Source: Cyanobium sp. NS01 (GTDB lineage: Bacteria > Cyanobacteriota > Cyanobacteriia > PCC-6307 > Cyanobiaceae). From it: a stretch of DNA of 64,000 nt. The notes under the pieces were generated by a model. The model had not been told where the DNA came from and searched no databases. It saw only the letters and a list, made by a program, of their open reading frames with translations. The stretch lies in contig NZ_CP047940.1 of the NCBI RefSeq assembly GCF_014280235.1, positions 1,240,001 to 1,304,000 on the forward strand. Direction: 5' to 3'. The position numbers and the translations under genes are program-made. Below, one piece after another: positions 12,648 to 38,077 of this stretch (the first letter of the stretch is position 1; the number at the start of each line of letters is the position of its first letter).

Positions 12648-13838
12648 TCAGCGGCTGGCCTGCCGTAACAGCACGAAGCCTGTGACCAGGCCGATCACCA
12701 CGGGCAGCCAGGCGGAGAACAGGGGCTCAAGTGTGCCCTTGACGCCCAGGGAACTGAAGCTGAAGGCCACCAGGTAATAGCCGAAGATCAGCAGCACGCT
12801 GAGGCCGAACCCCTGGCTGCGGCTGCGCCGCGAGTGGGGCCTGGCCCCCAGGCTGCTGCCGATCAGGCCAAACACCAGACAGACCGCCGGAAAGGCGAAC
12901 TTCTCCTCGATCCTCACCCGCAGTTTGCGCGCCGCTTGCTCGTCGCCCGATTCCCGCAGCAGACGTTCCGCCGTACGCGCCTGACCGATGGTCATCTCGT
13001 TGGCGTCGGTGGGCAGCTTGGCCACCCGCATCGGCTGGTTGCCGAGCGGATAGAGGTAGCGATCGAAGCGGGCGGAGGTGATCGCGTCGGAATCGGCGCC
13101 GCCGATGCCGAACACCCGACCATCGAGAAACTCCCACTGGGCCTCAGCATCACTCCAGCGGGCCCGCTTGGCCGTGAGCATCACCCGATGGGCCGAACGG
13201 CTCATGTCCACCAGGGTCACATCCTCCATCACACCCTGGTTGAAACGCTGGGCATAGAAGATGTGGGTGAGGCCGCGCCTGGTGCTGCCATCGGGTTGCT
13301 CGACCCTGCCGTAGCGGGAATAGAGCACGTTGTCCTTCTGCTCGCCGGCCACGGCCCTGCCGATCGCCCGGCTCAGGGTGGCCTCGGCCTGGCTCAGGGT
13401 GCGCGGCACCACCGCTTCGTTGAAGCCGAAGGTGAGCAGCGTCATCACCAGCGAGAGAGCCACGGCCGCCATCACCATCCGCCAGGTGGGCACCCCAACG
13501 CTGCGCAGTGCCGTGAGTTCGCTGTTGCCGGAGAGCTTGCTGAAGGTGAGCAGTGTGGCCATCAGGGTGGCCATGGGGAAGGAGAGCACCAGAAACGAGG
13601 GCAGCTCCAGCAGCAGCACCTGCAGGGCCACGTCGAGCGGCAGGCCCGATTCCGCCACCCGCCGCACCAGCTCGAACACGGCCCCCACCGACAGCGACAC
13701 CGCCGTGAAGGCCGCCACGCCGTACACCAGCGGGCCGAACAACTCGCCCAGCAGCCAGCGATCCAGCAGCGGCAGCCGCCGCCAGGGCGCCAGCACCTGG
13801 CGCTGCAGCCGATCCAGGGCCAGAGGGGTGCCGCTCAC
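12648..13838 (-). CDS. LptF/LptG-family permease
   Basis: About 396 residues. Hydrophobic segments near residues 35-60, 75-105 and 120-145 and at the C-terminus flank a periplasmic domain, as in the YjgP/YjgQ family. These permeases extract lipopolysaccharide from the inner membrane, powered by LptB. Start is GTG, overlapping the lptB stop as GTGA. Only one LptF/G-type gene is present in this operon; cyanobacteria may use one such protein as a homodimer or keep the partner elsewhere, which cannot be told from here. Confidence 0.9.
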
Positions 13839-14563
13839 AGTCTGAAACCCTCCCCCAGGTAGTGCTGCCGCACGAGGGGATCGTTCCCTACATGCTCGGA
13901 CGTGCCTGAAGCCAGGATGGCGCCCTCCGAGAGGATGTAGGCCCGATCGGTGATGGCCAGGGTCTCGCGCACGTTGTGGTCGGTGATCAGCAGCCCCATG
14001 CCCCGGCCGCGCAGCTGCTGGATCAGGTCCTGCAGATCGGCCACGGCAATCGGATCCACCCCGGCGAAGGGCTCATCCAGCAGCAGGTAGCGGGGGCCTT
14101 CCGCTCCCACCGCCAGGGCGCGGGCCACCTCGGTGCGGCGCCGCTCGCCGCCCGAGAGCTGGTAGCCGCGGCGGTGCTGAAAGGCGCTGAGGTGAAAATC
14201 CTCGATCAGGTGTTCGAGCCGCTCGCGGCGCAGAGGCCTGGGGGTGCGACTGGATTCCAGGGCCAGCCTGAGATTGTTGCGCACGTCGAGCTGGCGAAAC
14301 ACGCTCGGTTCCTGGGGCAGGTAACCGATGCCGAGGCGGGCCCGCTGGGGCATCGGCACCTTGCTGATCTCGCGGCCGTCAAGCAGCACGGCCCCGGCGT
14401 CGGGGCGGATCAGGCCCGTCACCAGGCCAAAGGTGGTGGTCTTGCCGGCGCCGTTGGGACCCAGCAGGCCCACCACCTCGCCCGGTTCGAGGTGCAGGGA
14501 GACATGGTCCACCAGCACCCGGCCGCCGATGGCCAGCACCACCTGCTTCAGCTCCAGCGTCAT
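13835..14563 (-). CDS. lptB: LPS export ABC transporter ATP-binding protein
   Basis: About 242 residues. Walker [22 protein letters not shown]-loop [15 protein letters not shown] signature [17 protein letters not shown] and Walker [14 protein letters not shown] with the H-loop in TDHNVRET match LptB closely. It drives LPS extraction with LptF/G. It overlaps both neighbours by four bases (ATGA with lptA, GTGA with lptF/G), so lptA, lptB and the permease are almost certainly one translationally coupled unit. Confidence 0.95.
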
Positions 14564-15060
14564 GGCAGGGCGGCGGGGGCCGGAGCCTGGGTGGGGGGGA
14601 AGCGGTAGAGGGTGGTCACCTGTTCGCCGGGGGCCGATTCGGCCACCAGCCGTTCGTTCTCCACGAAGTACACAAGCCGCTCGGCCCGGATGCTGTTGCC
14701 ATCCCCTTGAAGCACGTCCACATCGCCACTCAGCACCAGGCGACCCTCACGGCTGAAGTACTGGGCCTGGCGGGCCGTGGCCACCACCCCCTGATCGCCG
14801 TAGACGATCCGCACATTGCCGCTGGCGGAGAGGATTCCGGTGGCGTTGTCGGCGCTCTGCAGGTCGGATTCGATCGTCACCACGCCGGTCAGAGGGGCCG
14901 TCTCGGGTGCGGCCGCTGGCGAGGCCATCTCCTGGGCCCTGGCTCCTGCCACCAGGGTGGAGGCGGGGAGGCCAAACGCAGCCAGACCCAGCAGGGCAAC
15001 GCTGGCGGGATGGAAGGCAGACAGGGGCAAGGACCGGGGCTGCCTGAACGCAGAATTCAA
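14560..15060 (-). CDS. lptA: LptA/OstA-like periplasmic LPS-binding protein
   Basis: About 166 residues. An N-terminal signal (hydrophobic [22 protein letters not shown]) precedes an OstA domain: [40 protein letters not shown] is the typical N-x-x-G-x-x-x-A-x-G-N-V repeat of the LptA jelly roll. It bridges LPS from the inner to the outer membrane. The start is a TTG overlapping the upstream DUF309 stop (TTGA); no ATG lies before the signal core, so the exact start is moderately uncertain. Confidence 0.88.
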
Positions 15061-29634: not shown

Positions 29635-30345
29635 TCAGGCCTCGTCGTTCTGACCCTGCTCGCCGCCGTGGCGGCCTTCGTTGATGGCATCAGCCAGCCG
29701 GCCCAGCACCAGTTGCACCGAACGCACGGCGTCGTCGTTGCAGGGGATCGGCACGTCGCAGAGATCGGGGTCGCAGTTGGTGTCGAGCATCGACACCAGG
29801 GGGATATCGAGCTTGCGGGCCTCGAGCACGGCGTTGGTTTCACGGCGCTGATCCACCAGCACCACCACATCGGGCAGGCGCCGCATGCTCTTCAGGCCAC
29901 CCAGGTATTTCTGCAGGCGGTCGAGCTCGCGGCGCAGCACAGCCCCTTCCTTCTTGGGACGCATGGCGATCGCGCCTGAGGCCTCCATGCGCTCCAGATC
30001 CTTGAGGCGCTCGATCCGGGCCCGCATCGTGGTCCAGTTGGTGAGCATGCCGCCCAGCCAGCGCTGGTTCACATAGGCGGCGCCGCAACGGCTGGCCTCC
30101 AGGGCGATCACTTCGGAGGCCTGCTTCTTGGTGCCCACGAACAGGAAACGCTTGCCACTGCGAGCCGCACTGCGGACCCACTTGTAGGCGTTATTCATGC
30201 AGACAGCAGTCTGCACAAGATCGATGATATGAACCCCATTGCGCGCGCAGTAGATGTAGCGCGACATCTTGGGATTCCAGCGACGGGTCTGGTGCCCAAA
30301 GTGGGCGCCAGCCTCCATCATTTCGGAGAGAGTGACAACAGCCAT
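29635..30345 (-). CDS. rpsB: 30S ribosomal protein S2
   Basis: About 236 residues. Motifs [19 protein letters not shown] near the start, [14 protein letters not shown] and [31 protein letters not shown] are those of S2. In many bacteria S2 represses its own rpsB-tsf mRNA. A 194-bp region precedes the gene and may contain the promoter and leader; it includes a short CACCG-loop-CGGTG hairpin, but I cannot assign a known RNA motif. Confidence 0.97.
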
Positions 30346-30539
30346 GGTGTGGGGGGTTTCGGGTTTGCCTCCACCTGCCTAGGGATCGAAGCGCTCCACT
30401 CTCCGCAGACAGCACCGATTGCGGTGGCGTCCCCGGTTGGGTTGGAGCCCGTGATCACCCGAAACACGCAGGTGTGCGGAATGAAGTTGGACCAGAGCAC
30501 CTTATCAAAGCGATGCCTCACGGACCCTGGAACATGCGC

Positions 30540-31472
30540 TCAGGCCAGGCCCTGGCGCCGTGCCTCCAGCTGCAGGGTGCGCACCCCGAGGCGATTGAGA
30601 GGAATCCGCAACAGTTCAAGCGCCAGGGCCGCCCGATCGCGGCGCACCAGCCAGGCCAGCACCGGCCTGAGGCTGCGCTCATTCAGCAGGCCGCCCAGGG
30701 TGAGCAGCTCCCAGAGCAGGCGGTGATACCAGGTGAACTGGATGATCATCCGCACCCGCTGGCTGGGGTGCTTGCGGAAGAACACCAGGGCCATCCTGGC
30801 CCGCTCCCGCTCCACCCGGATCAGGTCGGCGATCTGCTCCAGCCGGAAGGCCGGGTGCCAGTGGTAGCCCACGGCCTCGGGGCAGCGGATCAGCGCCACC
30901 CCCAGGCGCCGGAGCCGTTCGCCCAGCTCCAGATCCTCCCAGCCATAGAGCTGAAAACCTGTGTCGAACAGCCCGGCCTGCTCCAGCAGCTCGCGGGCGA
31001 TGGCCACATTGCCGGTGGCGAAATAGGCCCAGGAGTGATCGCGCAACTTGTGGCGCTCCGCCGTGGGCTCGTTGAAGTTGGAGGTGTTGATCACAGCCCC
31101 GTAGGTGAAGCAGCGCTGGTGGCCGAGGCGCTGCCAGGCCTGCTCCAGAGCCTGGGTGTGGCAGAGCAGGAAGCACGGGGTCACCACCAGGTCGCTGTCG
31201 ATGAACACCACCACCTCGCCCCGGGCGGCCTCAACGCCGCGGTTGCGGCCCGCGGCCGCACCGCCATGGCTCTGCTGCAGCAGGCGCACGTGCGGCAGGG
31301 CCGCCGCCTCGGCCTCGATCCAGGCCACGGTGGCGTCGGTGGAGCCGTCATCCACCACCACCACCTCGTAGTCGCCTGCGCTGGCAGGAAAATCCTGCTG
31401 CTCCAGGGCCGCCAGGCACTTCTGCAGGATCGGCAGGCGGTTGTAGGTCGGGATGACAACGCTGAGAAACAT
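30540..31472 (-). CDS. Family 2 glycosyltransferase
   Basis: About 310 residues. GT-A fold with LSVVIPTYNRLPILQKCL at the N-terminus, VVDDGSTD, the DXD-type metal site VVFIDSDLVV, and the C-terminal FDTGFQLYGWEDLELGERLRRLG, which resembles the galactosyltransferase-like (GT7-C) extension. It transfers a sugar from a nucleotide donor, probably for cell-surface polysaccharide or glycolipid; donor and acceptor are unknown. ATG 31472 gives the typical start just before the first beta strand. No other glycan genes are adjacent. Confidence 0.9.
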   Translation of the reverse strand: MFLSVVIPTYNRLPILQKCLAALEQQDFPASAGDYEVVVVDDGSTDATVAWIEAEAAALPHVRLLQQSHGGAAAGRNRGVEAARGEVVVFIDSDLVVTPCFLLCHTQALEQAWQRLGHQRCFTYGAVINTSNFNEPTAERHKLRDHSWAYFATGNVAIARELLEQAGLFDTGFQLYGWEDLELGERLRRLGVALIRCPEAVGYHWHPAFRLEQIADLIRVERERARMALVFFRKHPSQRVRMIIQFTWYHRLLWELLTLGGLLNERSLRPVLAWLVRRDRAALALELLRIPLNRLGVRTLQLEARRQGLA

Positions 31473-31576
31473 GAACCCGCTGCAGCGCACCGAACCGGCT
31501 GCCATGACCTGGCCACCATCATCATGGTCTGGGCATCACGGTCTGGTCTTCAGGCTCGAGGGCAGGGCCAAGAGAA

Positions 31577-31596
31577 AGGGACCCCTCGGGGTCCCT
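31577..31596 (-). terminator. Rho-independent terminator after the 51-residue basic protein
   Basis: AGGGACCCC (31577-31585) and GGGGTCCCT (31588-31596) form a 9-bp perfect stem. Read on the minus strand it is followed by TTTCTCTT, a T-rich tail, which makes this the best intrinsic terminator in the window. It ends the small gene at 31653. Confidence 0.75.
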
Positions 31597-31652
31597 GCTC
31601 TGGCGCGGAGAGCTGTTCAGCCACCGAGCCACTCGCCAGCCAGGCCGACTGA

Positions 31653-31808
31653 TCAGTCGGCGGCGCCGCCGTTGTTGGCCGTGCCGGTCACGCCGTTACC
31701 CACGCCTTCACCGCGACCATCGTTGCGCAGCTTGCGCTTCTTGAACTTGCGCGCGTAGGCGCGGTTGCGTTCCTGTTTTTCCTTCTTCAGATTCCTGCGC
31801 TTGGACAT
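31653..31808 (-). CDS. 51-residue very basic small protein
   Basis: Translation begins MSKRRNLKKEKQERNRAYAR and continues with K/R-rich KFKKRKLRNDGRG, then a neutral glycine/asparagine/alanine tail. It has an ATG start and a strong terminator directly after, so it is a free-standing transcription unit or the tail of the upstream operon. The charge pattern suggests RNA or ribosome binding, like small ribosomal or ribosome-associated proteins. I do not recognise a named family, though comparable small basic proteins seem to occur in picocyanobacteria. Confidence 0.75.
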   Translation of the reverse strand: MSKRRNLKKEKQERNRAYARKFKKRKLRNDGRGEGVGNGVTGTANNGGAAD

Positions 31809-31861
31809 ACGGGAGGCATCGTGGGGGTTGAGATGACTGGATCCTACTCACCGCCCTTCCC

Positions 31862-32584
31862 TCAAGGGCCGACGGCCCCCGCCAGCTCCAGGGAGGCCTC
31901 GGCCAGCCGGCCATCCTCCATCTGCAGCAGCCGATCGGCCACATCGAGAATGCGGGGGTCGTGGGTCACCATCAGCACGCCGCAGCCCTGCTCGCGGGCC
32001 AGGCGGCGCAGCAGCCCCACCACCTCACGGCCGCTCTGGCTGTCGAGGGCGGCGGTGGGTTCATCGGCCAGCAGCAACTGGGGCTGGGCGGCCAGGGCCC
32101 GGGCGATCGCCACCCGCTGCTTCTGGCCGCCGGAGAGGTCGTGGGGCAGCTTGTTGAGGTGGTCGCCCAGGCCCACCGCCCGCAGCCACTCGCGCGCCTG
32201 ATCGCGGCGGGCGCGGTAGCCCAGGCCCGGCAGCAGGTCTGCCCCCATCTGCACATTCTGCTCGGCAGTGAGGCAGCGCAGCAGGTTATGGCCCTGGAAG
32301 ATCATGCCGATGCGTTGGCGCAGCTGCTGACGGATCGAACGACCCGCCCCGTGCAGCTCGCAGCCGAACAGGCGCACCGAGCCCTCCTGCACCTTGCGCA
32401 GGGCTCCCACCAGGGTGAGCAGGGTGGTCTTGCCGCAGCCGGAGGGCCCCGTGAGCAGCACCACCTCCCCTGGCGCGATGGTCAGCGTCACGTCCTGGAG
32501 CACCCTGCGGCGCATCTCTGCCTCGCCATACCAATGGCTCAGGCCCTCAACGGCCACCAGGGGCTCACTCGGGGATCGGGCCAT
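31862..32584 (-). CDS. devA: DevA-type ABC exporter ATP-binding protein
   Basis: About 240 residues. Walker A LLTGPSGCGKTTLLTLVGAL, Q-loop MIFQGHNLL, signature HDLSGGQKQRVAIARAL and Walker B LLLADEPTAALDS are all intact. The MacB/LolD-like subgroup with DevB and DevC partners exports lipids or other compounds through a TolC-type channel. It overlaps devC by one base (TGATG) and closes the pcyA-devB-devC-devA unit. Confidence 0.93.
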   Translation of the reverse strand: MARSPSEPLVAVEGLSHWYGEAEMRRRVLQDVTLTIAPGEVVLLTGPSGCGKTTLLTLVGALRKVQEGSVRLFGCELHGAGRSIRQQLRQRIGMIFQGHNLLRCLTAEQNVQMGADLLPGLGYRARRDQAREWLRAVGLGDHLNKLPHDLSGGQKQRVAIARALAAQPQLLLADEPTAALDSQSGREVVGLLRRLAREQGCGVLMVTHDPRILDVADRLLQMEDGRLAEASLELAGAVGP

Positions 32585-33756
32585 CAGAAGATCTCAGCGG
32601 GGTCGGCGTCACCGAGGCGGCGCATGGCCAGGGCCGCCGATCCCAGGCACATCACCAGGATCATGCTGAACACCACCGTGGCCCGAACGCTGTTCATGGC
32701 CACGGGCAGGTTGGTGCCGTTGCGCACCAGGGCGTAGAGGCCCAGGCCGGCGGCATAGGCCGGCAGGTAGCCCAGCACCGCCAGAATCAGGCCCTCCCGC
32801 GCCACCACCCCCAGCAGAATCGGCAGCCGATAGCCCATGGCCATCAACGTGGCGTACTCAGGCAGGTGGTCGCTCACATCGGAATAGAGGATCTGGTACA
32901 CAATCACGCAGCCCACGACGAAGCCCATGGCGGCCCCCAGGGTGAAGATGAAGCCGATCGCCGTGCTGGTGCGCCAGTAGGTCTTCTCGAACTCCTCGAA
33001 GCCCGCCTTGGTGAACAGCCGCACGTCGCTGGGCAGGCTGCTCTCCAGGCGCTGGCGGGTCGCCTCGATGTCACTGCCGGGCCGCAGCCGGATCAGGCCC
33101 AGTTCGATGCTGCCCGGGGGCGTGCCCGGCAGCAGCTGCAGGAAGGTCTCGCGGCTGGTGAGGATGTTGCCGTCCGCGCCGAAGGAGGGGCCCAGGGTCA
33201 CCAGCCCCGACACCCGCACCCGGGTGCCCGCCACTTCGGTTTCCACCGTGCGGCCCTGCTTGAACCACTCGGCGATCGGGCCGAACTCCGGCCTGGAGCG
33301 CTCATCGAACAGCACCCGCCCTTTCTGGGTGAGGCTGCGGGCCTTCTCAGCGAGTTCCGGGTCGAGGAACAGGGGATCGGCCGGCTCGAAGCCCAGGGCC
33401 AGGATCGAGCGGGTGTTGCCGCTCACGGGGTTGCGCCAGAGCAGCAGGTTCCAGTGCACGGGGGTGGCGCCCTGCACGGCGGGGTCCCCCATGGCATGGA
33501 TCAACCGGCGCCGGGGAAAGCCAGCCATGCCGATCGAGCTCATGGTGCGGGGACTCATCATCACCAGATCGGCGTCGAAGAGCTTGTGGATCGTGACGCT
33601 GGCGTCGAACAGCCCATCGCGGAAACCCAGCTGCATGAACATCAGGATCCCCGCGAAGGAGATCCCCGCCAGGGCCACCGCCAGCCGCAGGGGCTGGCGG
33701 GAGAGCAGCAGCCAGGCCAGGGGAATCCGGCGCGCTTGCCAGAGGCGCTGCAACAT
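32584..33756 (-). CDS. devC: DevC-type ABC exporter permease
   Basis: About 390 residues. One N-terminal transmembrane segment (LRLAVALAGISFAGILMFMQLGF), a large periplasmic domain with MSPRTMSSIGMAGFPRRRL, and three C-terminal membrane segments from about residue 270 to 380, the MacB/FtsX topology. DevC family members work with DevA and DevB; in Anabaena DevBCA exports heterocyst glycolipids, but this organism shows no sign of being heterocystous. One-base TGATG overlaps connect it to devB and devA. Confidence 0.93.
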   Translation of the reverse strand: MLQRLWQARRIPLAWLLLSRQPLRLAVALAGISFAGILMFMQLGFRDGLFDASVTIHKLFDADLVMMSPRTMSSIGMAGFPRRRLIHAMGDPAVQGATPVHWNLLLWRNPVSGNTRSILALGFEPADPLFLDPELAEKARSLTQKGRVLFDERSRPEFGPIAEWFKQGRTVETEVAGTRVRVSGLVTLGPSFGADGNILTSRETFLQLLPGTPPGSIELGLIRLRPGSDIEATRQRLESSLPSDVRLFTKAGFEEFEKTYWRTSTAIGFIFTLGAAMGFVVGCVIVYQILYSDVSDHLPEYATLMAMGYRLPILLGVVAREGLILAVLGYLPAYAAGLGLYALVRNGTNLPVAMNSVRATVVFSMILVMCLGSAALAMRRLGDADPAEIF

Positions 33757-34691
33757 CAGGGGGTGAAGCGGGCGATCAGCTTGAGGCCCGTGCGGTCGCG
33801 CACCCGCTGGGCATCATCGGGGTCGAGCTTCACCCGCACCTCCACGATGCGGGCGTCCACGTCGCCGGTGGGATCGGTCTCGAGCACGGCCCTCTGGCGC
33901 ACCTGGGGACTGATCCGCACCACCTCGCCGCTGAGCTTGCCCTCGAAGCCGCCGTTTTCGCTGGTCATGGTCACGGCCTGCCCCAGCCGCACCCGGTTGA
34001 TGTCGCTCTCGTAGACCTCGATCAAGGCCTCCATGCGCTGGTTCGCCCCCAGTTCGAGCACGCCGTCTTCACCCGGGCGCTCGCCGACCCGCGAATGGAG
34101 CCGCAGCACCGTGCCGCTGATCGGGGCCCTGAGCGAGGTGAGCTTCAGATCGGCCTCAAGGCGATCGCGCTCGGCCAGGGCCTCCTGCAGCTGACCTTCG
34201 AGCTCGAGCAGGGTGGTTTCGCGGGTGTCGAGTTCACCGCTCGGAATGGCGCCCTGGCGGCTCAGGGAGCGGTAGCGGGCGATGTCGCGGGTCTGCACGG
34301 TGAGGCGGCTGCGCAGATTGGCGATGCGCACCTCCACCACGCGGCGCTGGGCCTGCAGCGGGGCGGCCGTGTCAAACACCGCCAGCAGGTCGCCGGCGCT
34401 CACCGCATCGCCCTCCTGCACCAGAAGACGTGTGATGCGAGGACTGCCGCCGATGCCGCTGATCGGGGCGGCCAGGCTGCGCACCTCGCCGCTCGGATCG
34501 AGACGGCCCAGGGCCGCGACCGCCTCCGGGGCGGCGGGCCGCTCAGCGCTGCCAGCGGTCTGGGCCGGCATCGACGTGGACGCGGTCCTCAGCCGCTGCG
34601 CCACGGCCCAACCCACCAGCACCACCAGCACGGTGCCGCCCACAGCCAGAAGGAGCCTGCGCCGGGAGGTTTCCACACCCAGCAGCTTCAC
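33756..34691 (-). CDS. devB: DevB-type (HlyD-like) membrane fusion protein
   Basis: About 311 residues from a GTG start that shares GTGA with the pcyA stop. Basic start, one membrane anchor ([19 protein letters not shown]), a lipoyl half-motif ([22 protein letters not shown]), a coiled-coil hairpin (about 110-190), the second lipoyl half ([21 protein letters not shown]) and a beta-barrel end. It would link the DevAC pump to an outer-membrane channel; no TolC homologue is in the window. Confidence 0.93.
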
Positions 34692-35446
34692 AGGGCCGGT
34701 GGATCGTCGAAAAGCAGCTCTTCGATGTAGCGGTCGGCCCAGTCCGGGCTGAAGGCCTTCTCCAGCACCCGCCGTGTCTTGTCGTTTTGTTTCTGTTGCT
34801 TGCAGTACCGGAGCTGGCCGTTCCATCGATCGACGGTAGCGGGGTCGTCCAGGGGCTGAGGCGGGGTGTCCCGCAGCGCGGCGGTGAGCACCTCCAGCAC
34901 CTCGCCCACCTCGTCGATGAACGCCTGCTCCTCCTCCGGACCCACGGGGCGGATGAAGCGCACATGGGGCGAAAAGATCGAGCCCCAGCCCGGCAGCTCC
35001 CGCTCCTGGGCGTAGCTGCGCCGGGGGCGAGCCGCGAGGGCCGCCTCGATGGCTCCAGGCAGGGCGTCAGCCACGGGGGAGAGATCCACGATGGCGGCCG
35101 ACACCCCGGCCGGTCCGGCCACGATGTCGGCACCGAACACCGGCAGGTCGAAGCGGGGGTCGGGGAAGAGCACGCAGTGCAGAATCTGCAGCCCCGCCCC
35201 CAGCCGGGCGGTCTCGAGGTGCAGCTTGCGCAGGCCGCGGCACTGGCGCAGCTCGTTCCGGATGAACAGTTTCTCGCCGTCGAGGCTGCCGCTGATGGCC
35301 TCGAGGTCGGGGTCGATGGCCAGGGGGGCCAGTTCTGGCATGCGCTCCCAGCTGGCGCGGATGCGCGCGGCCAGGGCATCCACCAGGGGATGAATGCCCC
35401 CGGACTGGGCGCCGCTGCGGGCAGATCCGGCGTCGACGGTGCTCAC
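34688..35446 (-). CDS. pcyA: Phycocyanobilin:ferredoxin oxidoreductase
   Basis: About 252 residues. Reduces biliverdin IXa in two two-electron steps to phycocyanobilin, the chromophore of phycobiliproteins and phytochromes. Likely catalytic residues are present: Glu78 (LHLETARLG), His90 (ILHCVLFP) and Asp107 ([10 protein letters not shown]), matching Glu76, His88 and Asp105 of the Synechocystis enzyme. GTG 35446 gives the best N-terminus. Its stop overlaps devB. It starts only 22 bp from the divergent M16 peptidase gene. Confidence 0.94.
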
Positions 35447-35468
35447 AGCCGTGTCCCCAGTCAGCAGA

Positions 35469-36770
35469 ATGCAGATCCTGCCACGTCCCTTCGCCTTGCC
35501 CCTGGCTTCCACCCCCGTTCTGCTGCCAGGCCTGGCGTCACCGCACATCCACACCCTGCCGAACGGCGCCCGCAGTGTGCTGCTGCCCCTGGCTGACAGT
35601 CCCCTGGTGTGCCTCGACTTCTGGTGCCGGGCCGGCAGCGTGTTCGAGGAGTCGGGCGAGAGCGGTCTGGCCCACTTCCTGGAGCACATGGTGTTCAAGG
35701 GCAGTGCGCGGCTGGGGCCAGGCGAATTCGATGGGCGGATCGAGGCCCTGGGCGGCAGCAGCAATGCGGCCACGGGCTTCGACGATGTGCATTACCACGT
35801 GCTGATCCCCCCGGAGGCCGCCCTTGAGGCCCTGGATCTGCTGCTGGATCTGGTGCTCGAGCCCGCCCTGGTGGACGAGCCCTTTCAGATGGAGCGCCAG
35901 GTGGTGCTCGAGGAGCTGGCCCAGAGCGAGGACCAGCCGGACGATGTGGCCCTGCAGCGGCTGCTGCGGCTGGGTTGCGGCAGCCACGCCTACGGGGCGC
36001 CGATCCTGGGGGAACGCCAGGCCCTGCTGGCCCACACGCCTGCCACCATGGCGTCCTTCCAGAAGCGCCTGTACGGCGCTGAGCGCTGCGTGCTCGCCGT
36101 GGCCGGCGCCCTGGAGAGCCTCGCACCAGCACTGAAGAGCCGCATCGGCGCCAGCCCCCTGGCCGGCCTGCCCCGGCGGGATGAGCCGCCGCGCCGCTCG
36201 CCCATGGGCGTGGTGCCGGGCACGCACCGGCTGGCCCTGCCCCGGCTGGAAGCCGCCCGGCTGCTGATGCTCTGGGCCCTGCCTCCCGCCAGCGACCTCG
36301 CCGCCGTGATGGGAGCGGATCTGCTCACCACCCTGCTGGCGGAAGGCCGCCGCAGCCGGCTCGTGGCCCTGCTGCGGGAGGAGCTGCAGCTGGTGGAGAG
36401 CATCGACCTCGATCTGCACGTGATGGAGTGCGGCAGCTTCGCCCTGCTGGAGGCCATCTGCGAACCCGAGGATCTCGGCGCGGTGCGTCAGGCCATCGAC
36501 GCAGCCTGGCTGCAGCTGCAGCAGGAGGCGATCGGCGAGCCGGAGTGGCAGCGGGCCCTGCACCTGGTGGCCAACGGCTACCGCTTTTCGCTGGAGTCAC
36601 CCGCTGGGGTGGCCGGCACCATCGGCAACAACCTGCTCTGGGGGCGGCCCCAGGACCTGGGGCTGCCTCTGGAGCATCTGCACGATTGGACCGCGGACGC
36701 CCTGCAGCGACAGCTGGTGCCCCTGCTCGATCCCGCCCTGGCCTGTGTGCTTGAGGCGGTGCCCGCATGA
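35469..36770 (+). CDS. M16-family zinc peptidase, catalytic partner
   Basis: About 433 residues. The inverted zinc motif H-x-x-E-H is at residues 69-73 ([10 protein letters not shown]), with a downstream glutamate in [18 protein letters not shown] as third ligand. The family (processing peptidase/pitrilysin type M16B) digests small unfolded peptides or transit peptides. It overlaps the second M16 gene by four bases (ATGA), so both are made together and probably form a heterodimer like mitochondrial MPP beta/alpha. Confidence 0.94.
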
Positions 36771-38077
36771 GCAGCTGGACCTGCCTGTCGCTCGCCGGCG
36801 GCCTTCCCCTGCTGCTGCAGCAACGACCGGGCGTGGGTCTGGTGGCAGCCCGGCTCTGGATCCGGGGCGGCAGCAGCCGCGATCCCGTTGGCGGCCGGGG
36901 CGCCATGCAGCTCCTGGCTGGGGTGATGACCCGTGGCTGCGGAGCTCTCACGGCCGAACAGCTCGCCGACCTGGTGGAGGGCCGCGGCGCCGCCCTGCGC
37001 TGTGAGGCCCATGAGGACGCCCTGGTGATCAGCCTCAAGTGCGCCAGTGACGATGCCTCGGAACTGCTGCCGCTGCTGCTGGCGATGGCACGCGAGCCCG
37101 GCCTTGCCCCGGAGCAGGTGCAGCTGGAACGGCAACTCAACCTGCAGAGCCTGCAACGCCAGCGGGAGGACCCCTTCCAGCTCGCCCATGACGGGCTGCG
37201 GGAGCTCCTCTACGCCAACGGCCCCTACGGCCACGATCCGCTCGGGGTGGAAGTCGAGCTGGAGCAACTCACGGCCGCCGCCCTGGCCCCCCTGGTGGAC
37301 GACCTCGGCCGCCAGGGAGCCCTGCTGGCCGTCTGCGGCGACCTGCCGGCGGCGGCCGATCTGCAGGGCCAGCTCAACCGCCAGCTGGGCCTGACACCGT
37401 GGCAGACAGCCCTGCCCGTGCCCCAGCCGACGGCGGCGGCGGGGACAGGAGTGGCTCCCGTGCTGCTGTGCCAGGACACCGAGCAGGTGGTGGTGATGCT
37501 CGGGGCGGCGACTGTGCCTCTGGGCCACCCGGACGCCCTGGCCCTGCGCCTGCTGCAGGCCCACTTCGGCCTCGGCATGTCGAGTCGACTGTTCGTGGTG
37601 ATGCGGGAGGAACGGGGCCTGGCCTACGACGTGGGCGTGCACCTGCCGGCCCGCTGCGGCCCGAGCCCCTTCGTGTGGCACTGCTCCAGCTCCACTGAGC
37701 GGGCTGGGGAAGCGATGGCCGCGTTGCTGGAGGAGTGGCAGCGCCAGCTGGAAACGCCCCTCAGTACCGCGGAACTCAGCCTGGCCAGGGCCAAGTTCCG
37801 GGGGCAGGACGCCATGGGCCGCCAGACCTGCGGCCAGATCGCCGATCGTCACGCGCTGGTGATGGGCCATGGCCTGGGCGACGGCTACGTCGCCCGCTCC
37901 CTGCTGGCGGCAGAGCAGCTCAGCGCCGATGACCTGCTGGCTGCCGCGCGGCGCCATCTGGCTGAGCCCCGCCTCAGCCTGTGTGGTGCGGCAACGGCGG
38001 TGGCGGCGGCCGAGGCCGTGTGGAGCTCCTGGAGCAGCAGGGCAGCGCTGCCGCCGGCGACTTCAGGGAGTCGTTAA
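36767..38077 (+). CDS. M16-family peptidase-like protein, non-catalytic partner
   Basis: About 436 residues, with the same fold as its upstream neighbour. The segment that should hold H-x-x-E-H reads GRGAMQLLAGVMTRG, so the zinc site is lost. The C-terminal half keeps the R/Y pair region (LGMSSRLFVVMREERGLAYDVG) that completes the partner's active site in M16B heterodimers. This is the expected split of roles in paired M16B proteins. Confidence 0.92.
   Translation: MSSWTCLSLAGGLPLLLQQRPGVGLVAARLWIRGGSSRDPVGGRGAMQLLAGVMTRGCGALTAEQLADLVEGRGAALRCEAHEDALVISLKCASDDASELLPLLLAMAREPGLAPEQVQLERQLNLQSLQRQREDPFQLAHDGLRELLYANGPYGHDPLGVEVELEQLTAAALAPLVDDLGRQGALLAVCGDLPAAADLQGQLNRQLGLTPWQTALPVPQPTAAAGTGVAPVLLCQDTEQVVVMLGAATVPLGHPDALALRLLQAHFGLGMSSRLFVVMREERGLAYDVGVHLPARCGPSPFVWHCSSSTERAGEAMAALLEEWQRQLETPLSTAELSLARAKFRGQDAMGRQTCGQIADRHALVMGHGLGDGYVARSLLAAEQLSADDLLAAARRHLAEPRLSLCGAATAVAAAEAVWSSWSSRAALPPATSGSR

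Follow-up and report, generated by a model that had tools for sequence, protein, structure and literature searches.

A pcyA-devBCA gene cluster in Cyanobium sp. NS01 and a possible pigment-linked past of the heterocyst DevBCA exporter

The devB, devC and devA genes are a textbook heterocyst gene set. In Anabaena PCC 7120, alr3707 has been identified as pcyA (PMC4788461) and alr3710-alr3712 as devB, devC and devA (PMC8277102). These locus numbers, rather than the PCC 7120 sequence itself, place the heterocyst devBCA genes after pcyA, and the same neighbourhood was seen directly in 56 named Nostocales loci. Here, we analyzed a 64,000-nucleotide stretch of the Cyanobium sp. NS01 genome (NZ_CP047940.1, positions 1,240,001 to 1,304,000; hereafter, the window), in which pcyA, encoding phycocyanobilin:ferredoxin oxidoreductase, is directly followed by a devBCA set.

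The window locus was compared with four described systems. It shares with the Anabaena DevBCA-HgdD exporter the same three subunit families and the position downstream of pcyA. However, devB overlaps pcyA in the window, with no spacer, and no NtcA box was present around the pcyA start (33 of 33 family loci); DevB has 311 residues, versus a Nostocales median of 474; and the genome holds one full DevC and no ketoacyl-synthase (KS) gene of polyketide synthase (PKS) size. MacAB-TolC resembles the locus in its MacB-type permease fold, its MacA-type fusion protein and the TolC-type gene, which is present in the window genome, but the ATPase is separate here (DevA) and fused in MacB, and DevC resembles MacB only weakly in sequence (best E=2.5e-4, in a profile search). 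The heme exporter HrtBA, which has a separate ATPase and permease, as DevA and DevC are, and works without a fusion protein or a TolC partner, offers the nearest solved fold to the DevC model (Z 26.0); nevertheless, DevC is 14% identical to HrtB, which was not retrieved by sequence. Finally, tolyporphin clusters contain the same DevB and DevC families beside tetrapyrrole genes (PMC8401325), but the DevC near a hemE-type gene in the two strains checked (L339, L341) falls in another DevC subclade.

Gene order and overlaps in the window and its family

PcyA, DevB, DevC and DevA of the window all exceeded the curated NCBIfam cut-offs (Table 1), and devB, devC and devA follow one another in the order of a DevBCA exporter on a single strand. 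A first-pass annotation, made from the sequence, had described the pcyA stop as overlapping the devB start in GTGA and the three dev genes as joined by one-base TGATG overlaps, and direct reading of the sequence confirmed both. The TGA of pcyA (34690-34688) overlaps the GTG of devB (34691-34689); one base is common to the devB stop and devC start in the TGATG at 33756, and one to the devC stop and devA start in the TGATG at 32584. It is a fair inference from this arrangement that the four genes lie on one mRNA, and their translation would be coupled. PcyA aligned with the Synechocystis-type PcyA structure 2d1e (E=2.9e-66) and retained the LHC and DIVAGP stretches, which we take to be catalytic positions (His/Asp). 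DevB matched MacA (4dk0; E=2.3e-8).

Gene order was then compared across 200 genomes of the window's family (f1), which genome sizes and gene content suggest is the Synechococcus-Cyanobium-Prochlorococcus family; here and below, counts over related genomes do not represent independent events. A pcyA match was present in 199 and a DevC match in 198. The spacing between the two could be read in the 139 genomes with both matches listed; the other 61, including genus g5 with its more divergent DevC, fell outside this check. In 138 of the 139, pcyA and devC occupied the same contig and strand at a distance of 892-1014 bases, which is about the length of devB. The sole exception had them on different contigs, and even there devB followed pcyA as far as the retrieved sequence extended. 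The first-pass annotation had considered a heterocyst-type pump odd in a unicellular-type genome; this view does not hold, given the near-universal DevC of the family and the fact that heterocyst devBCA itself neighbours pcyA.

The junctions were examined in 60 family loci by mechanically choosing the possible start nearest each stop, a procedure that favours small gaps. On this basis, devB could overlap or abut pcyA in 47 of the 58 loci with both genes, devC could do so with devB in 53 of 60, and devA with devC in 17 of 60. The arrangement extends to very small genomes: in genus g9 (assemblies of 1.0-1.7 Mb), DevC was found in 26 of 31 genomes, and the order pcyA-devB-devC-devA-GT2 in 24 of the 26 DevC loci, the other two being shorter and without pcyA. 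The GT2 glycosyltransferase gene lay 3' of devA in all 26, as it did in devC-centred loci of the family. The M16 peptidase gene and GT2 gene were retained as neighbours in most fetched family loci, and therefore synteny is generally high there.

The window genome (one contig, 2.75 Mb) encodes a single full DevC, the only other match being partial (30% identical, E=7.9e-4). It has a single TolC-type open reading frame (ORF; 610 residues, two OEP repeats), and its ketoacyl-synthase ORFs number just two, of 433 and 436 residues. No KS gene of PKS size, and hence no glycolipid polyketide synthase, was found in the genome. With one DevC, one TolC and no such gene, heterocyst glycolipid is an unlikely cargo here.

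No match to GTAN8TAC, HLR1 or a Fur-like site was found around the pcyA start in 33 family loci (the GTAN8TAC scan covered 170 nucleotides; 0 of 33), and no sigma-70 consensus promoter within 30000-37500. The window has no spacer ahead of devB, and neither the pcyA-devB junction nor the stretch around the pcyA start holds an NtcA-type promoter. A consensus scan of the whole window yielded five terminator-like sites, versus 1.8 expected. The one in Table 1, at whose place several relatives have, by eye, a similar hairpin and T-run, is the probable end of the transcription unit, ahead of the glycosyltransferase gene.

Table 1. Features of the pcyA-devBCA locus (positions in the window)
Feature	Position	Strand	Basis
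pcyA, phycocyanobilin:ferredoxin oxidoreductase, 252 aa, GTG start	34688..35446	-	NF002760, 324.8 bits vs cut-off 206
devB, membrane fusion protein, 311 aa, short helical hairpin	33756..34691	-	TIGR02971, 225.4 bits vs 129
devC, MacB-type permease (predicted fold), 390 aa	32584..33756	-	TIGR01185, 430.7 bits vs 290.35
devA, ABC ATPase, 240 aa	31862..32584	-	TIGR02982, 348 bits vs 295.8
GTGA overlap, pcyA stop/devB start	34688..34691	-	direct reading
Gene for 51-aa basic protein, 3' of devA	31653..31808	-	translation; match in 60/60 family loci
Terminator-like hairpin, 3' of the 51-aa gene	31577..31596	-	consensus scan

Linkage outside the family and the promoter pattern in Nostocales

A sample of 136 genomes from the phylum contained 63 with pcyA, 57 of them outside the family. 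All 59 pcyA copies of these 57 genomes were fetched, and the 57 copies with at least 5 kb downstream were regarded as testable. devB and/or devC lay downstream on the same strand in 23 of the 57 (both genes in 22), distributed over families f6 (2), f7 (14), f10 (1), f11 (2), f17 (1), f20 (2) and f22 (1). Counting the window's own family, the sample thus has eight families with the order pcyA then devB/devC. The first-pass annotation had named a lack of this adjacency in close relatives as refuting; instead, the linkage held in the family and in these 23 copies beyond it. No devB or devC match was found upstream of pcyA or on the opposite strand in the fetched stretches of the 59 phylum loci. 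In a Nostocales-rich set of named genomes (the best 80 of 538 loci), the genes were linked in 64 of the 72 loci with enough sequence. A literature search limited to open-access papers found none naming both pcyA and devB and encountered no mention of the pcyA-devBCA linkage.

As a control, 257 stop-to-stop ORFs of the window (at least 120 residues) were searched against the 59 phylum pcyA loci. devA recurred in 27 loci, devB in 23, devC in 22, an ORF antisense to devC in 19 and an ABC-ATPase-like ORF (13838-14746) in 17; each remaining window ORF recurred in at most 4. Six of the 27 devA matches were in unlinked loci, at 31-36% identity, and the matches of ORF 13838-14746 were on devA itself in 11 of 17 cases and elsewhere, at 27-33% identity, in six; all of these were therefore considered ATPase cross-matches. 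Separately, the window's rpsB had matches no more than about 8 kb from pcyA in L207, L208 and L237, loci that represent two genera outside the family; L207 and L208 also had a tsf match near pcyA.

The spacer between pcyA and devB distinguished the Nostocales. Spacer and NtcA counts were made on distinct rows, because four pcyA copies are common to the named and phylum sets; the linkage, between-gene ORF, shuffle-control and DevB-length counts were not purged of these four. In 56 named linked Nostocales, the gap was 435-2921 bases (median 852). Among the 20 other distinct linked copies, from outside Nostocales, 13 had gaps of -36 to 187 bases, such as those of Symplocastrum (30), Argonema (72), Coleofasciculus (120) and Microcoleus (124), and seven had longer ones. 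The NtcA class-II promoter pattern (GTAN8TAC-N21-23-TAN3T) was present in 58 of 66 distinct Nostocales/f7 spacers versus 3 of the 20 other linked copies, and in 23 of 3300 (0.7%) control stretches of the same length elsewhere in the Nostocales/f7 loci. Those three came from Plectonema radiosum NIES-515, an uncultured bin and a relative of Roholtiella that is presumably a heterocyst-former. The internal spacing was also distinctive: across 68 distinct long spacers, the N8 form occurred in 59, versus 32 for N5, 20 for N9 and 8-13 for the rest.

A dinucleotide-shuffle control for the bare GTAN8TAC box was discarded as too generous, since equal-length stretches upstream of pcyA carry the box in 39 of 64 cases; it was replaced first by stretches of equal length drawn at random from these loci (20% with a bare box) and then by the stricter class-II pattern. 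Given this frequency of the upstream box, pcyA itself may be nitrogen-regulated in Nostocales loci. A conserved sequence of the form GTAAC[CT][AT]AG[AG][CA]TAC, which fits the NtcA consensus, was also observed at most 600 nucleotides upstream of pcyA in 31 of 66 Nostocales loci (for example, L121, L123 and L147). NtcA binding at devB has been published, and the NtcA site of the proximal devB promoter departs from the consensus (PMC3898017); a canonical promoter in the spacer would therefore differ from that proximal promoter.

The ORF lists of the Nostocales showed no conspicuous gene common to the pcyA-devB intervals. ORFs of 211, 211 and 174 residues lie between the two genes in L133, L155 and L253, respectively, and appear TetR-like by eye. 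A conserved protein of 261-329 residues is encoded convergently with devA in L133, L157, L168, L197, L244, L252 and L344-L347, including where devBCA is separated from pcyA. The neighbours of unlinked devBCA sets were examined for clues to the cargo, and this recurring protein was of no help.

Nostocales DevB proteins were 430-506 residues long (n=70 rows), and an alignment of eight sequences located the difference from the window protein in the helical hairpin that separates the two lipoyl halves; within the family, three sequences were aligned. Stop-to-stop DevB frames in the 60 family loci had a median of 347 residues (range 188-499), and a short DevB would be typical of the family rather than proven for all members. 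Because the short-gap lineages outside the family mostly have a long DevB (366-561 residues), hairpin length is not tied to the spacer.

Origin and cargo of the exporter

The explanation that we consider best, with a probability of roughly 0.4, is an old pcyA-devBCA operon with a tetrapyrrole-linked ancestral cargo, which was later used for glycolipids under NtcA control in Nostocales. In such a scheme, pcyA-devBCA would be an old transcription unit with one mRNA and coupled translation. DevC and DevA would form a pump of the MacB type, which would collect an amphiphile from the periplasm or the inner membrane and, by way of DevB and the single TolC-type protein of the genome, drive it across the outer membrane. 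The ancestral cargo might have been a by-product, porphyrin or bilin, that arises at the PcyA branch and is expelled because it is phototoxic. In Nostocales, an NtcA promoter would have split the operon, and devBCA would then have been put to use for heterocyst glycolipids. The specific proposal that DevBCA was the original efflux partner of PcyA for a tetrapyrrole by-product and became a glycolipid exporter through insertion of the NtcA promoter is less likely than not.

The case for a tetrapyrrole cargo comes from the pcyA adjacency over several families, the expulsion of protoporphyrin IX by MacAB-TolC in Escherichia coli (PMC4263509), the occurrence of DevB/DevC genes in tolyporphin clusters (PMC8401325, PMC10459692) and the HrtB-like fold of DevC. 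An AlphaFold2 model of DevC was built from 19 sequences (predicted local distance difference test score 81.3; predicted template-modelling (TM) score 0.72). In a second-look alignment, the top match was HrtB (7w7a_J; Z 26.0, root-mean-square deviation (rmsd) 3.9 over 337 residues, 14% identity), followed by HrtB 7w78_B (Z 24.0), 5xu1 (22.7), LolC/E (21.5) and FtsX (17.4); MacB (5nik_J) gave Z 17.3 and rmsd 9.6. Foldseek ranked LolE and MacB first by E-value and gave higher TM scores to HrtB and 5xu1. DevC scored above the Pfam cut-offs for FtsX (36.7 bits vs 25.5) and MacB_PCD (28.7 vs 27). By sequence, the plausible matches were MacB and 5xu1, the remainder being weak and unrelated, and no sequence relation between DevC and HrtB was found. 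The model thus assigns DevC a predicted MacB-type (type VII) permease fold, which does not indicate the cargo.

The window DevC likely belongs with the pcyA-linked DevC proteins rather than with other paralogues, although support is modest, and this orthology is not proven because the grouping varies between trees and an approximately unbiased (AU) test was permissive. In a first, quick tree of 98 rows, 34 of the 35 pcyA-linked DevC proteins outside the family formed one group (support 87) that also took in 15 unlinked copies and was distinct from the other paralogue groups; the exception was L197. The family DevC sits on a long stem. A second, careful tree used 58 of the 98 rows, chosen to spread, and the AU test accepted the family DevC being held with the linked group (p 0.27). 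The third tree omitted five of the 58 rows (two long paralogues, two Nostoc paralogues and L197); it placed the family DevC with the linked group and the paralogues on one side of a branch (85/95). The fourth omitted nine and added 14, including more Nostoc paralogues, and again placed the family DevC with the linked group (support 88). Window and pcyA-linked Nostocales DevC proteins thus group together in two of four trees.

Several observations weigh against the proposed history. The first tree placed the family DevC with a single long paralogue (support 70) and the second with two other long paralogues (91/75). pcyA was unlinked to devBCA in 34 of the 57 testable copies outside the family, 8 of the 63 pcyA-bearing genomes lacked DevC at E<=1e-70, and cyanophages carry pcyA (27 records) with no DevC match found in them; together, these results argue against an obligate link to bilins. 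The copies from UBA11371/2, Aliterella and G260 have gaps of 942-1895 bases that lack the NtcA pattern; long gaps are therefore not confined to heterocyst-formers. A shared fold is no proof of function, and LolC/E, which acts in lipoprotein release, and MacB also match well. In two tolyporphin Nostoc strains (L339, L341), a DevC is encoded some 5 kb away from an additional uroporphyrinogen decarboxylase (hemE-type) gene, at a locus that we took to be the tolyporphin cluster, but a sister relationship to the pcyA-linked DevC was not supported. With its place in another subclade, the tolyporphin DevC is a parallel case and not the same gene. Finally, the biochemically tested relative, Anabaena DevBCA with HgdD, exports heterocyst glycolipids (PMC6161253, PMC8277102).

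That last point also favours a second explanation, in which DevBCA is an envelope lipid or glycolipid exporter throughout and pcyA lies upstream because its promoter suits the expression of the pump, the genes being linked by a shared signal (light, iron or nitrogen) and not by chemistry. The GT2 gene 3' of devA in the window's family and the LolC/E-like fold of the model are consistent with it, as is a GT2 gene, 56% identical to that of the window, immediately 5' of pcyA and in the same orientation in L213 and L214 (G201 and G256 of family f2), two genomes that lack DevC at E<=1e-70. However, the terminator-like hairpin separates the unit from GT2 in the window, the genome has no KS gene of PKS size, and a close GT2 relative was found in only 2 of 139 pcyA loci outside the family, neither of them linked to devBCA. 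No picocyanobacterial lipid known to us would call for a DevBCA pump. This explanation is possible, if less probable than the old tetrapyrrole-linked operon; with regard to the cargo itself, tetrapyrrole and lipid are nearly level, and we slightly favour tetrapyrrole.

It is unlikely that the two genes have no functional link and that their order is an old accident kept by inertia and by overlaps in compact genomes. The unlinked pcyA copies, the high synteny of the family, in which the M16 peptidase and GT2 genes are kept as well, and the retention of the order in Nostocales despite an intervening promoter all fit such an accident, but none of the remaining window genes keeps company with pcyA across families (4 of 59 loci at most, versus 22-23 for devB and devC). 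It is highly improbable that DevBCA is a general efflux pump for drugs or metabolites that came to lie behind pcyA by chance: MacB-type pumps export drugs, as do some Anabaena paralogues (PMC8277102), and ORFs that look TetR-like by eye lie between pcyA and devB in L133, L155 and L253, but retention of a DevC match in 198 of 200 genomes, in a family where small genomes are common, is not what one would expect of a drug pump.

Positional relatives whose genes overlap pcyA, in unicellular organisms and in very small genomes, give DevBCA a history outside heterocysts. If the old operon with a tetrapyrrole-linked cargo is the correct explanation, a well-known heterocyst pump may have started out in the service of pigment metabolism, and the locus would clearly illustrate how a developmental promoter can be set into a gene cluster older than itself. 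The original cargo of DevBCA becomes a direct experimental question.

Neighbouring genes

The 51-residue basic protein encoded 3' of devA is 88-100% identical across six family genomes, versus DevC identities down to about 65% in relatives. A -10-like TAGGAT is visible by eye upstream of its gene, which looks like a cistron separate from pcyA-devBCA. The protein had no Pfam, NCBIfam or PDB match and no match within the pcyA loci fetched outside the family; it was found in 49 of the 136 phylum genomes, every one of them pcyA-bearing. On the other side of the unit, pcyA and the M16 peptidase gene diverge across about 22 nucleotides (35447-35468, taking the M16 start as the ATG at 35469). This gap contains the block GTGGCAGGATCnnCATTCTGCTG, which by eye seems strongly conserved in most of the family loci L003-L032 listed and may be a shared two-way promoter.

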